Shown piece after piece: positions 4,526 to 36,414 of a DNA stretch of 36,414 bases. The DNA lies in IMG/VR virus record IMGVR_UViG_3300010371_000024, positions 1 to 36,414 of that record; one strand, 5' to 3'. Position 1 is the first letter of the stretch. Each line of letters begins with the position of its first letter. The translations under genes and the position numbers were made by a program. The DNA comes from a virus. The notes beneath the pieces were generated by a model. That model worked only from the letters and a program-made list of their open reading frames with translations, was not told the origin of the DNA and ran no database searches.

Positions 4526-4707
4526 TTGATCCAGACTATTTAAACCACGTTCTTGCTGAAGATGTTCTTTCGACAAAGCGTGAATTTGTTGGACTTAAGT
4601 TATCAAAAGAGATTATTAAAAGAATCGAAAAAGAAGCACATAAGCGAGGAATCAAGAAAACTCAGATGATTCGCCTAGCACTTCATCAAATGTTTGGAGG
4701 TAAGTAA
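4522..4707 (+). CDS. Ribbon-helix-helix DNA-binding protein, 61 aa
   Basis: Residues 20-26 (REFVGLK) fit the DNA-contacting beta ribbon; 28-42 (SKEIIKRIEKEAHKR) and 46-59 (KTQMIRLALHQMF) fit the two helices of the Arc/MetJ/CopG fold. A short acidic N-terminal arm precedes the ribbon. Such proteins bind operators as dimers of dimers and often regulate their own operon. No partner toxin is visible nearby, so I read it as a phage transcription regulator. The stop overlaps the next ATG by one base; GGAGG within its last codons is the ribosome site for the next gene. Confidence 0.75.
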   Translation: MIDPDYLNHVLAEDVLSTKREFVGLKLSKEIIKRIEKEAHKRGIKKTQMIRLALHQMFGGK

Positions 4708-5045
4708 TGGAAACAGATATAAAGGTTTTAAGCATTAATGGGATTGATTATGTGCCGAAATCATCGGTTCAAGCGACTCAACCAAATGGCCCGACAAAAA
4801 TTGTTGTGCTTCAGCGTGGATGGGTTATGGTCGGTAAGCTTGAGAGAAATGGATCTGAGTGTAAGCTTCATCATGCCTCTGTCATTAGATCATGGGGAAC
4901 AACTAAAGGTCTCGGTGAGATCGCCTCTGAGGGTCCCAAGTCATCAACAAAACTAGATCCTTGTGGAGGCGTTGTTGAATTTGATTATTTAACCGTCGTC
5001 TGTGCGATTGCTTGTGAGGAATCAAAATGGGCGAAGCATCTTTAA
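4707..5045 (+). CDS. DUF6948-like small protein, copy A
   Basis: The 112-residue product starts METDIKVLSINGIDYVPKSS. The core includes GWVMVGKLERNGSECKL, HHASVIRSWGTTKGLGEIA and CGGVVEFDYLTVVCAIACEE. The layout (NG-DYV start, then a GKLERNG strand, a hydroxyl-rich RSWG segment and a closing strand) resembles the DUF6948 phage family as I remember it; this is not verified. An almost identical copy lies inverted at 34490-34828, most differences being silent and the N-terminal residues differing more. The start has GGAGGTAAGTA upstream. It overlaps the Gly-X gene by 19 bases, as in the other copy. Confidence 0.8.
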   Translation: METDIKVLSINGIDYVPKSSVQATQPNGPTKIVVLQRGWVMVGKLERNGSECKLHHASVIRSWGTTKGLGEIASEGPKSSTKLDPCGGVVEFDYLTVVCAIACEESKWAKHL

Positions 5046-5314
5046 AAAGAACAATTAATTTTGAAGAGTCCAAGGCCAGTTTTGGCAATGGCTATGGCAA
5101 TGGCGATGGCGATGGCTATGGCAATGGCAATGGCGATGGCAATGGCTATGGCTATGGTTATGGCAATGGCGATGGCGATGGCGATGGCGATGGTGATGGT
5201 TATGGCAATGGCAATGGCTATGGTTATGGCTATGGCAATGGCAATGGCGATGGCAATGGCTATGGCAATGGCTATGGCAATGGCTATGGCGATGGCAATG
5301 GCGATGGCTGGTAA
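5027..5314 (+). CDS. Gly-X dipeptide repeat protein, copy A, 95 aa
   Basis: A 19-residue head (MGEASLKRTINFEESKASF) is followed by 38 Gly-X dipeptides in which X is only Asn, Asp or Tyr, ending GW. The bases (5084-5311) are hexanucleotide units of GGC or GGT followed by a codon such as AAT, GAT or TAT. The gene starts inside the end of the DUF6948-like gene. The composition suggests a flexible, possibly metal-binding or self-associating tail; the function is unknown. Copy B is at 34245-34508. That the two copies keep intact frames argues that the product is made. Confidence 0.7.
   Translation: MGEASLKRTINFEESKASFGNGYGNGDGDGYGNGNGDGNGYGYGYGNGDGDGDGDGDGYGNGNGYGYGYGNGNGDGNGYGNGYGNGYGDGNGDGW
5084..5311 (+). 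repeat. GGC-NAT hexanucleotide microsatellite, copy A
   Basis: These 38 six-base units all fit GG(C/T) followed by TAT, AAT or GAT, except the closing GGCTGG. Because of the six-base periodicity all three forward frames stay open: Gly-X in the used frame, Met-Ala/Met-Val in a second, Trp-X in the third. Unit gain or loss does not shift the frame. Confidence 0.9.
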
Positions 5315-25897: not shown

Positions 25898-27846
25898 TAT
25901 TGAACTCCTGCTGATGCTGGAACATTAGGGATTAAATCACTTGTTGGCGTAGCTTGTGGATTAGCTTGAGGAGTTGGCGAGCCTTGAGGAGGCTGAGGAG
26001 GAGTGGTTAACCCTAACAGATCATCCACTTGAGCTTTAAAGTCTCGAAGCTTTGAAATGAGCTTCTCAGGACATCCATTCACTTTCGCATAGTTTAAATA
26101 CTTAAGACAATAATCCTGACACAGAACTAAGTCCCACTCACCATCTGGCACAACTTCCTCGCCGTCATAGATAACACTCTCAATAGATTTACAGATCAGA
26201 TCTTCAGCCGCATCAGCTAGCATATCTGCCATCTCAACATCTGGCATACGAAGCAGTCGTCTTGCAGCTCGAGGAGTGATGAATCCAGCCTGAGCGTATT
26301 CTTGAACAGTCTGAAGCTTTGCTGCTGGTTCTTCTGGTAACTCACTCGTTGGAAAAGCTTTTAACCAATACTCTTCCATTGAAAGGTTAATATCTTTCCA
26401 GTCAATCTCTTCTAAGAAGTTATTACTTGCATACTGAACCTTGTAAGTTCCTTTTTCAGCATAGATTTCTTTCGTCAAATCAATCGACTTCTTAATTAGA
26501 CCAAGCGACGCACCTTCGACTCGTTGACCAAAGAAGAGCTGTCTATCTTCTGCGATTGTGTCGTAAGTTCTAAGTGCAGTACCGCTATTAATCCCCATCG
26601 GTTTCACGTTAGAAGCTGCAAGCTGTGACACGCCTTCTTGCTGATAACCCTTAGCAATAAGTGAATCGATCTTGATTTCGTTTGATGGATCAATAGGACT
26701 TGGAGTGATGTACTGAGGTGGCACACTACCAGCCCACTTAATGATGGGTCCTACTTCATTGTTAAAATGCTGTTGTGGAATCTTATCAGAAATGTGTGAC
26801 AGAATCTTAAACGATGCACTCATCCAACGAGACTTTTGATCAAGGATCATCAAGCGATTAATCTCACCTTGAAGGTTCATCAATCTCTCACACGCACCTT
26901 GTCCATCAATACCAACTAAGCGTTTAGAATATTGCAAGTCCTCGAAAGGAAAGTAGTCATATTTATATTCCTTCTTCGCTAACACTTTCCCCATGTCATA
27001 CAAGCTCTTTACATAGACTCCATCTTTAGCATCTTTATTTGATGGCAGATGCCAGCTCTCAGAGATGATGATGAGATCTGCTGCTGTTCCAGCTCCTCCA
27101 ATGTCTTGATAACTTGCAGGATTACATGTGTTAATTAATGCCTCTTGATCTGGATATTCTGAGATTAATATGCCTCGATCTTCAATATAGACTCGGTGTA
27201 ACTGTCTCACAGATCCAGAGAGTGATTCAATCAAGTCCCAAGTAAGCTCATGAGGCAAAATCCTTTTATAACAGACTCGATCTTCTTTGTTTCTATACAC
27301 ATAGATATATCCATCACCCCAGACAGCAGCATCTCTGGCCTGATAAGTGACTTTATTGTGAGCATCTTGTTCATAGAAGAGACCTTCAGCGAATTTACTT
27401 AACGCTTCAGCCTTTTTCTGTAATCCCCACTTAGCGCCGCTCGTAATAAACGTAGGAACAACTTTGTTTTTGGCAACCTGAGCAGTAACTGTATCAATGA
27501 CAGATGCACATAAGTTAAAGCTAATCCGAGAACCAGAAGGACTAGGCACCGCGTTGCTTGCGCGTGTGAAAGATGCACCAAGAGTATTGTAAGGAGATGA
27601 GTTTCCATAAAGCCTTGTCGAGACAGTTAATTGATTTAATCTCTGGTTAAAGTTGTCTGTCATGAATCTAATCGTTGAGGCGATCTCATGAGCCATCACA
27701 TCGTCTTGAGAATCATCTTCAGCGTCAAATCGTTTCCACCAGAAATATTTCTTAGGACCTGATAAGTCTTCTTGAGGTTCTCTCACCACTTTTCCATCAA
27801 CCATTCGTGTCATCGTGCTTCGTTCTACTTTGATCTTCTTTGCCAT
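25897..27846 (-). CDS. Portal protein, 649 aa
   Basis: After a charged start (KKIKVERSTMTRMVDGKVVRE), the protein has features of P22-type portals: a helical entry region (NFNQRLNQLTVSTRLYGNSS), KKAEALSKFAEGLFYEQDAH, the segment DAAVWGDGYIYVYRNKEDR and later LGLIKKSIDLTKEIYAEKG. The 649-residue length is close to the family. A Pro/Gln-rich C-terminal tail (PPQPPQGSPTPQANPQA) is low complexity. The portal forms the dodecameric ring at one capsid vertex through which DNA passes. It lies after TerL and before the scaffold. Confidence 0.8.
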   Translation of the reverse strand: MAKKIKVERSTMTRMVDGKVVREPQEDLSGPKKYFWWKRFDAEDDSQDDVMAHEIASTIRFMTDNFNQRLNQLTVSTRLYGNSSPYNTLGASFTRASNAVPSPSGSRISFNLCASVIDTVTAQVAKNKVVPTFITSGAKWGLQKKAEALSKFAEGLFYEQDAHNKVTYQARDAAVWGDGYIYVYRNKEDRVCYKRILPHELTWDLIESLSGSVRQLHRVYIEDRGILISEYPDQEALINTCNPASYQDIGGAGTAADLIIISESWHLPSNKDAKDGVYVKSLYDMGKVLAKKEYKYDYFPFEDLQYSKRLVGIDGQGACERLMNLQGEINRLMILDQKSRWMSASFKILSHISDKIPQQHFNNEVGPIIKWAGSVPPQYITPSPIDPSNEIKIDSLIAKGYQQEGVSQLAASNVKPMGINSGTALRTYDTIAEDRQLFFGQRVEGASLGLIKKSIDLTKEIYAEKGTYKVQYASNNFLEEIDWKDINLSMEEYWLKAFPTSELPEEPAAKLQTVQEYAQAGFITPRAARRLLRMPDVEMADMLADAAEDLICKSIESVIYDGEEVVPDGEWDLVLCQDYCLKYLNYAKVNGCPEKLISKLRDFKAQVDDLLGLTTPPQPPQGSPTPQANPQATPTSDLIPNVPASAGVQ

Positions 27847-34244: not shown

Positions 34245-34508
34245 TTACCAGCCATCGCCATTGCCATCGCCATAGCCATTGCCATAGCCATTGCCATCGC
34301 CATCGCCATCGCCATTGCCATAACCATAGCCATTGCCATTGCCATAACCATCACCATCGCCATCGCCATCGCCATCGCCATTGCCATAACCATAGCCATT
34401 GCCATCGCCATAGCCATCGGCATCGCCATAGCCATCGCCATACCCATCGCCAAAACTGGCCTTGGACTCTTCAAAATTAATTGTTCTTTTTAGAGATACT
34501 TCGCCCAT
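34245..34508 (-). CDS. Gly-X dipeptide repeat protein, copy B, 87 aa
   Basis: The head (MGEVSLKRTINFEESKASF) differs from copy A by one residue. It is followed by 34 dipeptides of Gly-Asp, Gly-Tyr and Gly-Asn with one Ala-Asp, ending GW. It overlaps the DUF6948-like gene by 19 bases and lies 22 bases before the ATPase start. The function is unknown. The shorter repeat and one Ala substitution show the copies drift by unit gain, loss and point change. Confidence 0.7.
   Translation of the reverse strand: MGEVSLKRTINFEESKASFGDGYGDGYGDADGYGDGNGYGYGNGDGDGDGDGDGYGNGNGYGYGNGDGDGDGNGYGNGYGDGNGDGW
34248..34451 (-). repeat. GGC-NAT hexanucleotide microsatellite, copy B
   Basis: These 34 six-base units encode the Gly-X tail. 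One unit reads GCCGAT-like (Ala-Asp) instead of Gly. The alternative Met-Ala frame is open and joins the ATPase frame. Confidence 0.9.
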
Positions 34509-34828
34509 TTTGATTCCTCACAAGCAATCGCGCAGACGACTGTTAAATAATCAAACTCAACAACGCCTCCACAAGGATCTAGTTTTGTTGATGACTTAGG
34601 ACCTTCAGAGGCGATCTCACCGAGACCTTTAGTTGTGCCCCATGATCTAATGACAGAGGCATTATGAAGCTTACACTCAGATCCATTTCTCTCAAGCTTA
34701 CCGACCATAACCCAGCCACGCTGCAAAACTACGATCTTTGTTGGGCCATTTGGTTGAGTTATTTGAACCGATGATTTCGGCACATAATCAACTCCATTAA
34801 TGCTTAAACTTTGCACAGATGCTTCCAT
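34490..34828 (-). CDS. DUF6948-like small protein, copy B
   Basis: This 112-residue copy begins MEASVQSLSINGVDYVPKSS and keeps GWVMVGKLERNGSECKL, RSWGTTKGLGEIASEG and EFDYLTVVCAIACEE. Apart from the first dozen residues, differences from copy A are few and mostly silent. It is the first gene of the leftward unit, with AAAGGATATCT before the ATG. A family resemblance to DUF6948 is from memory. Two copies in different transcription units would allow expression in both phases. Confidence 0.8.
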   Translation of the reverse strand: MEASVQSLSINGVDYVPKSSVQITQPNGPTKIVVLQRGWVMVGKLERNGSECKLHNASVIRSWGTTKGLGEIASEGPKSSTKLDPCGGVVEFDYLTVVCAIACEESKWAKYL

Positions 34829-34959
34829 AGATATCCTTTGGTTAAGTTAAAACTAAGTTGCTCTCTCGAATAATGAGACAAGAGAAATAAATCAAATAGA
34901 ATCTAGTTAATGAGAACTGTTATCAGTAATAACTAATTAAGAAATTAACCGGAACTATT

Positions 34960-34989
34960 TTGTTGTCACAGCTAAGAAGTTATTACAAT
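34960..34989 (+). promoter_or_regulatory. Promoter candidate for the noncoding RNA
   Basis: TTGTTG (34960-34965), an 18-base spacer, then TACAAT (34984-34989) resemble sigma-70 -35 and -10 boxes. Transcription would start near 34996, at the edge of the structured region. Confidence 0.45.
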
Positions 34990-34991
34990 AT

Positions 34992-35497
34992 CCTCAACGG
35001 AGCCTTTTTGTGAGGCTTAACTTGAAGCTAGTCAAAGACTGTTCGGGCGACAAAGAAGCTTCAAGGGTGGGGAGAACTCACTCGCTGGAATAATAACCAG
35101 TTAGCATAGGTGACAGAAGGTCTTCTGGAAACATCACACAAAGGTTGATAGCGTCTGGCTCCATAAGGGGATGGACACTAACAGGACTGGACCATGGGAA
35201 CAACGCTACTCGCAATAGTGCCCTGCAAGAACTCGAGCGACCACGAGTAGCCAGCAACCTGAGATCGCGGTTGGCTAAGGCTTAGACCAAACTAAGCTAT
35301 ACGTACCAACTGATATAGATGGCTGCTTCAGGGAATACCCAATTTAACCTAAGTCTTCTTGGCGCTCCTGCGTCTTCACCACAGCGGATGAATGATGCGT
35401 TAAAAATATATCTTGATTTTCTTTTCATTTAATAATTAACTGCTGTTGTCTTAACCGACAGGCTGCTTGTCTTGGTCGCACTTGCTTGCAGCTTTTC
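34992..35497 (+). ncRNA. Large structured noncoding RNA candidate
   Basis: No coding frame of note covers this GC-richer stretch. Local helices include 35021-35028 with 35058-35065 (CTTGAAGC/GCTTCAAG) enclosing 35030-35040; 35067-35081; 35085-35100; 35114-35127; 35161-35174; 35205-35212 with 35244-35251 (GCTACTCG/CGAGTAGC); 35255-35273; 35280-35297 (GCTTAG/CTAAGC); 35297-35318; 35331-35340; 35370-35398. G-U pairs in two stems favour the plus strand. A promoter-like sequence lies at 34960 and a T-rich tail at 35493. It could be a member of, or relative to, the large ornate phage RNAs (GOLLD, ROOL and similar). I cannot assign a class. It sits between divergent operons. Confidence 0.6.
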
Positions 35498-35502
35498 TTC
35501 TT
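35462..35502 (+). terminator. Weak terminator candidate after the structured RNA
   Basis: GCTGC (35462-35466) pairs with GCAGC (35488-35492) and TTTTCTTCTT follows. The loop is long (21 bases), so the call is weak. Confidence 0.3.
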
Positions 35503-35578
35503 ATCTCTTATAAATAATAAATTCAAATCTAGGTGTTAGATGTGGCTGAGTTAATTCTGTTATGTTAACTATTTTTTA

Positions 35579-35779: not shown

Positions 35780-36139
35780 ATGACACCTGATCAAACAGCA
35801 CAGTTAACAGAGTTTTTATTATCAACATTAAAAGATACAAAGCAGTTTGTTGTCGGCCAAGCCCCTGATGTGGTGAGACAGATACTAGCTTATGCTACTT
35901 GGGACGCTAAGTTTGGCATATATTGTGGGATTATGCTTTTAATACTTTCACTTATAAATTTTATTTTAAGTGCCACAGATGATTCATCTTTTGGCGAAAG
36001 AGCGGTTATATGTGGAGTACTTTCCATTATTTTTTTTATTATCGGAGTTGTTTCAATACCATGTAATTATTCTACTTTAAAGAAAATAGAGATTGCCCCT
36101 AAAGTATTCATTATGGACCAGCTTCGAGGGAATAAATGA
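35780..36139 (+). CDS. Two-helix membrane protein, 119 aa
   Basis: AGGAG lies seven bases upstream of the ATG. An N-terminal soluble helix (MTPDQTAQLTEFLLSTLKDT) precedes two transmembrane helices at about residues 55-70 (IYCGIMLLILSLINFIL) and 82-100 (VICGVLSIIFFIIGVVSI). The C-terminal end is IAPKVFIMDQLRGNK; I recall an IAP-x-x-x-x-DQ-like ending from other phage membrane proteins. It is linked by ATGA to the repeat protein gene. The pair may act at the host membrane, perhaps in exclusion or lysis; this is inference. Confidence 0.75.
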   Translation: MTPDQTAQLTEFLLSTLKDTKQFVVGQAPDVVRQILAYATWDAKFGIYCGIMLLILSLINFILSATDDSSFGERAVICGVLSIIFFIIGVVSIPCNYSTLKKIEIAPKVFIMDQLRGNK

Positions 36140-36414
36140 ATACTATCGTAATTAACACACAAACCGAACTAGATGCGCTTCCAAAAAAGATTGAAGCGAA
36201 TCTAGAAATTAAATTTAATGCTGCGAAATGCGCAGCCGAAGAAATTTCTGGCGACCTCCGCGTGTATGGCACAGCGAAGCTCGATGCACCTGCACTGACA
36301 TCAGTCGGTGGCGACCTCTACGTGGATGGCACAGCGAAGCTCGAGGCACTGACATCAGTCGGTGGCGGCCTCTACGTGTATGGCACAGCGAAGCTCGATG
36401 CACCGGCACTGACA
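36136..36414 (+). CDS. Beta-solenoid repeat protein, N-terminal part (continues at base 1)
   Basis: The gene starts at the ATG overlapping the upstream stop. Residues 1-38 (MNTIVINTQTELDALPKKI, then EANLEIKFNAAKCAAEEIS) form a non-repeat cap. The first repeat units follow (GDLRVYGTAKLDAPALTSVG and on). The frame is open to the end of the window, and merging the identical 110 bases joins it in frame to 1-962. Together the parts give an N-cap, about nine solenoid repeats and a C-terminal domain. It is co-translated with the two-helix membrane protein. Confidence 0.85.
   Translation, partial: MNTIVINTQTELDALPKKIEANLEIKFNAAKCAAEEISGDLRVYGTAKLDAPALTSVGGDLYVDGTAKLEALTSVGGGLYVYGTAKLDAPALT
36305..36414. 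repeat. Terminal direct repeat, right copy
   Basis: These bases are identical to 1-110 and represent the assembly overlap of a circular or circularly permuted genome. Removing one copy gives a length of 36304 bases. Confidence 0.95.

Follow-up and report, generated by a model that had tools for sequence, protein, structure and literature searches.

The noncoding junction between two divergent operons

The IMG/VR phage record IMGVR_UViG_3300010371_000024, which is 36,414 bp long and is referred to at its full length as the window, contains a stretch at the meeting point of two operons that raises the question of whether it encodes a structured RNA and, if so, of which class. A preliminary description of the sequence had proposed a large noncoding RNA at 34992–35497, either a divergent member of the GOLLD or ROOL classes or a new class. 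The window encodes a terminase and a portal protein identified using PHROGs, and the closest terminase relatives in bacterial genomes share no more than 41% identity with it. A long minus-strand operon occupies 5677–34828, and a plus-strand operon begins to the right of the RNA region and resumes at the start of the contig. The RNA region forms the divergent junction between the start of the minus-strand operon at 34828 and the plus-strand ORFs from 35579/35780. The contig is probably circular, because a tandem-repeat protein (e.g. VGGDLYVDGTAKLDAPALTS) runs over both ends (18–962 and 36136–36414). A gene pair is also duplicated in the window, one copy on each strand: a Gly-Tyr-Gly-Asn/Asp-rich repeat protein is encoded at 5027–5314 with a second repeat copy at 34245–34508 on the opposite strand, and each copy adjoins one paralogous gene (4707–5045 and 34490–34828), the latter of which is weakly similar to DUF6948. 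No tRNA or tmRNA was identified in the window by ARAGORN, and the window does not encode RtcB.

No ORF longer than 59 aa is present in 34992–35400, and all window frames are interrupted across the RNA region. The GC content of 34950–35400 is 0.42–0.55, compared to 0.25–0.30 in the flanks, which agrees with the GC-rich region between AT-rich flanks described previously. A 14-codon ORF (MNDALKIYLDFLFI) at 35388–35432 on the plus strand is probably not a gene. The predicted fold energy of the single sequence is not beyond chance, with z-scores of -1.39 for 34992–35497 and -1.45 for 35000–35410 (7 of 100 shuffles equally good). Significance beyond chance comes from comparison with a homologue and not from the window fold alone.

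A candidate plus-strand promoter, TTGTTG-18-TACAAT or alternatively TTGTCA-15-TACAAT, can be read from the sequence at 34960–34989, with the transcript expected to start near 34992–34996. It overlaps an imperfect, operator-like 14-nt inverted repeat (34926–34939/34973–34986). The promoter-like sequence of the preliminary description is thus readable, but promoter-like matches in a scan were at chance level (3 found vs 2.6 expected) and TTGTTG-18-TACAAT was absent from them. The T-rich tail described downstream likewise exists as a predicted plus-strand stem with a large loop and a T-rich run at 35462–35504, a possible terminator, but a short-loop scan returned no terminators, this stem included. 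Termination at this stem would possibly give a transcript of approximately 510 nt; the 3' boundary of the RNA is placed at 35400 or about 35504.

A homologous region in a related phage

A search with the DNA of the region against 26 gathered records of terminase relatives returned a homologous intergenic region in one, IMGVR_UViG_3300037156_000075 (G010), as two collinear same-strand matches. The window and G010 align locally with a score of 119, and none of 300 shuffles scored as well, the best reaching 80. The structural genes of G010 are homologous to those of the window from the terminase through the tail region, with 72% identity for a 430-aa head protein, and the G010 RNA differs from the window RNA in both place and orientation relative to these genes. 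It is located downstream of two genes, presumably encoding a YqaJ-like nuclease and a RecT-like protein as named by sequence inspection alone, and directly upstream of rtcB, identified using Pfam. The start codon of this RtcB RNA ligase marks the 3' end of the G010 RNA. In the 14 kb surrounding the homologue, ARAGORN identified neither a tRNA nor a tmRNA, and the stability of the whole-length G010 fold is not unusual.

The putative structured core of approximately 360–400 nt is located at 35000–35400 on the plus strand, as are all elements described below, and corresponds to G010 26355–26715. When the 5' domain is folded separately (window 34992–35105, G010 26349–26445), both sequences form four hairpins, and in each the minimum-energy structure is identical to the centroid. 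The stems of 7, 9, 6 and 5 pairs and the spacers of 2, 0 and 1 nt are the same in the two phages. Hairpin P0 (35000–35018) has a 7-bp stem in which three pairs are changed on both sides in G010 and two on one side. P1 (35021–35065) has a 9-bp stem with five pairs changed on both sides, one changed on one side and none broken; the perfect 8-base pairing 35021–35028/35058–35065 reported previously is present and is in fact a perfect 9-bp helix, 35021–35029/35057–35065. P2 (35066–35082) follows P1 without a spacer, and its 6-bp stem contains three pairs changed on both sides. P3 (35084–35101), which is separated from P2 by 1 nt, has a 5-bp stem with five pairs changed on both sides, though its pairing register at the stem end is uncertain and an alternative register gives one of four pairs changed on both sides. 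Of all 27 pairs in the 5' domain, 16 carry changes on both sides and 3 on one, 8 are the same in both phages, and no pair is lost. Dinucleotide shuffling of the G010 segment never recovered the architecture in 10,000 trials, with four shuffles matching the spacing alone; the zero count is not a strict probability because the segment ends were picked after the similarity had been seen. A relaxed four-hairpin descriptor followed by GCATAG retrieved only the window and G010 loci from 3.28 Mb of fetched sequence.

Directly 3' of P3 is the invariant junction UAGCAUAG (35102–35109), which is identical at G010 26443. The next hairpin, P5 (35145–35184), contains the most conserved block, AGCGNCUGGCUCCAUANNGGGAUNG, and its helix covaries from GUCU/GGAC to GACU/AGUU in G010, where one loop-closing pair is broken. 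The alignment places a further conserved block, GACCAUGGGAACAAC, at 35190–35204 (GACCCUGGCAGCAAC in G010). The second perfect 8-bp pairing proposed earlier, 35205–35212/35244–35251, was confirmed in the helix at 35205–35251, for which the G010 match is loose only. The alignment is poor in the middle third, about 35210–35345, and recovers in the conserved 3' block AAGUCUUCU..GGCNNUCNUGCGUCUUCACCACNNNGGAUGA (35351–35391), which holds the ATG of the 14-codon ORF and whose G010 copy ends at the RtcB start codon. The conserved blocks shared by the two sequences are, in order, UAGCAUAG, ACAARGG, AGCGNCUGGCUCCAUANNGGGAUNG, GACCNUGGNANCAAC, AAGUCUUCU and UGCGUCUUCACCACNNNGGAUGA.

The pair was also analysed with a purpose-written fold-and-align program. 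The structural gain exceeded that of column shuffles (z 2.7, 0 of 100), 3 of 192 energy-matched column shuffles were as good, and the total score exceeded energy-matched sequence shuffles (z 3.8). The minus-strand structural alignment is nearly as good (z 2.2), and the plus strand is preferred mainly for the G-U pairs that the conserved helices contain. Substitutions are evenly distributed over codon positions (11/50, 11/47 and 13/49), with no codon periodicity. From these comparisons, the element is noncoding and its structure is kept while the sequence changes, apparently under selection in the two phages. This supports the large structured noncoding RNA of the preliminary description, on covariation evidence from two sequences, which is below what R-scape needs.

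The RNA is rare, with two members known. Covariance models built from the window and G010 sequences (R1 and R2) added no further member when run on 49 phage records, mostly terminase relatives, and R1 likewise added none from 79 RtcB loci. In IMG/VR, exact motif scans returned the known homologue and chance matches, mostly inside coding sequence, and a near-exact scan for the 3' motif in a bacterial and archaeal genome collection gave no match. BLAST found no homologue in phage, plasmid or E. coli sequences; a match to a Hyphomicrobiales plasmid sits at a gene start and was attributed to chance. A separate gap of approximately 855 nt without ORFs of at least 65 aa lies directly upstream of rtcB in phage G027 (IMGVR_UViG_3300012984_000006, locus L084, 3120–3970) and is the longest before rtcB among 80 RtcB loci. 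It has no significant fold and no Rfam match above the gathering score. It was set aside as a parallel, since no similarity to the window RNA was found, and a weak match between G010 and this locus comes mostly from a hairpin common to both that lies upstream of the RNA.

Proposed role and competing explanations

The region is most likely, by a little better than an even chance, a new structured phage RNA that acts in trans. As read from the two sequences, the RNA would be approximately 400 nt long, or up to about 510 nt if it reaches the T-rich stem, with transcription proceeding rightwards out of the divergent promoter region. The 5' half of the RNA would present the row of four hairpins, the conserved UAGCAUAG linker and hairpin P5, and its end the conserved 3' tail. 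The RNA is predicted to be transcribed on its own and may act during infection as a scaffold or decoy whose fold captures a protein or an RNA enzyme; the simplest such mechanism is the binding of a protein. Action in trans is suggested because the downstream gene differs (RtcB in G010, with none in the window) and because a possible terminator follows in the window.

The main rival to this trans-acting RNA is a long 5' leader acting in cis on the translation of whichever gene follows it, with the 3' block hiding or exposing the ribosome-binding site and start codon. The G010 block indeed holds both the start codon and the ribosome-binding site of RtcB, either sequence is able to form a small hairpin (UUCACC-ACNNN-GGAUGAA), and the window element heads the plus-strand operon. 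In the window, however, the element is followed by only the 14-codon ORF, an AT-rich spacer of approximately 150 nt that reaches to the next ORF, and the possible terminator. The differing gene contexts also speak against a leader that serves one particular gene. The RtcB gene that would be controlled in G010 is not shared, and a cis-acting leader is considered unlikely while retaining some weight. The stretch could instead act as DNA, for example as an origin of replication or a packaging site with a folded strand, which would suit the divergent junction, the inverted repeat overlapping the promoter and the recombination-type genes nearby in both phages. This is improbable, as the conserved helices use G-U pairs, no sharp turn in GC skew occurs exactly there and the homologue sits between co-directional genes.

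A decayed minus-strand gene is the least credible of the explanations. In G010 a minus-strand frame of 159 codons is open over the region and VVKTQE.. is readable in both sequences at the 3' block, but the window frames are interrupted. The absence of codon periodicity also speaks against a gene, as do tblastn matches that are only trivial, the lack of a Pfam family match, and the conserved AGCGNCUGGCUCC block, which differs at first and second codon positions.

A partner in RNA cleavage or repair is speculative for the trans-acting RNA and is based on RtcB lying directly downstream in G010 only. In its fullest form, this would be a new phage RNA class working with RNA repair, in which the RNA is cut and resealed by RtcB or diverts, as a decoy, a defence enzyme of the host that cuts RNA, and some of the phages also bring RtcB with them; this version is improbable.

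Comparison with known RNA classes

No match to the window was found in Rfam 15 at the gathering score, and at E<=10 the window and G010 matched unrelated chance families only, with GOLLD and ROOL absent. One motif, CUGGCUCCAUA, was presumed to resemble an RNase P element, but this assignment was dropped as Rfam gives it no backing. The tRNA-like ends and tag frame of a tmRNA were not identified by ARAGORN or Rfam. The general kind of large structured phage noncoding RNA fits the region, as it is noncoding and its structure is kept by compensatory changes (16 of 27 pairs, from two sequences).

Another structured noncoding RNA candidate of about 480 nt is present in two phages of the same terminase group, G013 (locus L068, 11290–11770) and G016 (locus L072, 16790–17283). 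The two copies share 76% identity with 15 compensatory pairs, the G013 copy has a fold z-score of -4.9 and no credible Rfam match, and the candidate is upstream of an orthologous 162-aa gene, preceded in G013 by an HNH endonuclease gene. It resembles the window RNA in being structured and noncoding, but profile search and structural alignment revealed no demonstrable homology. A link suggested by shared short words failed the profile and energy-matched structural tests, although a previous test, run against a weaker null, had appeared to favour it.

GOLLD and ROOL are large, phage-borne RNAs with many helices and with functions that are unknown, and they tend to lie near tRNA islands (PMC12286853). 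The window RNA is also phage-borne, large and rich in helices. Many GOLLD members exceed 800 nt (PMC12286853), whereas the noncoding region of the window is at most about 510 nt with a conserved core of approximately 360–400 nt, consistent with the earlier remark that it is shorter than typical GOLLD. There is also no tRNA in the window or in the 14 kb around the homologue, no homologues link the RNA to GOLLD, and the GOLLD covariance model gave no match at E<=10. The same lack of a covariance-model match and of a window tRNA separates it from ROOL, which is often near tRNA islands. A member of GOLLD, ROOL or another Rfam class that has diverged too far for the models would share the phage origin, the complex set of hairpins and the absence of protein coding, but is very improbable given the E<=10 results for both sequences, the missing window tRNA and a length too short for GOLLD. 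The divergent GOLLD or ROOL membership offered at the outset is not supported, and the new class proposed beside it is the reading that is left, though with only two members. Few large structured RNAs have been described from phages; a further compact class, well marked by its row of 5' hairpins, would enlarge the repertoire of RNAs used by phages and give defined motifs for screening.

The bacterial Y RNA YrlA is found in rtcBA operons and contains a tRNA-like domain (PMC7790460); for Y RNAs beside RtcB, competition of this domain for an anticodon nuclease has been suggested (PMC7790460). The window RNA differs from YrlA in being longer, in having no tRNA-like domain by ARAGORN and no Rfam match, and in coming from a contig without RtcB. 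The likeness to YrlA is that of a noncoding RNA beside an RtcB ligase, in G010 only of the two phages, and this placement is a testable hint toward RNA repair or defence.
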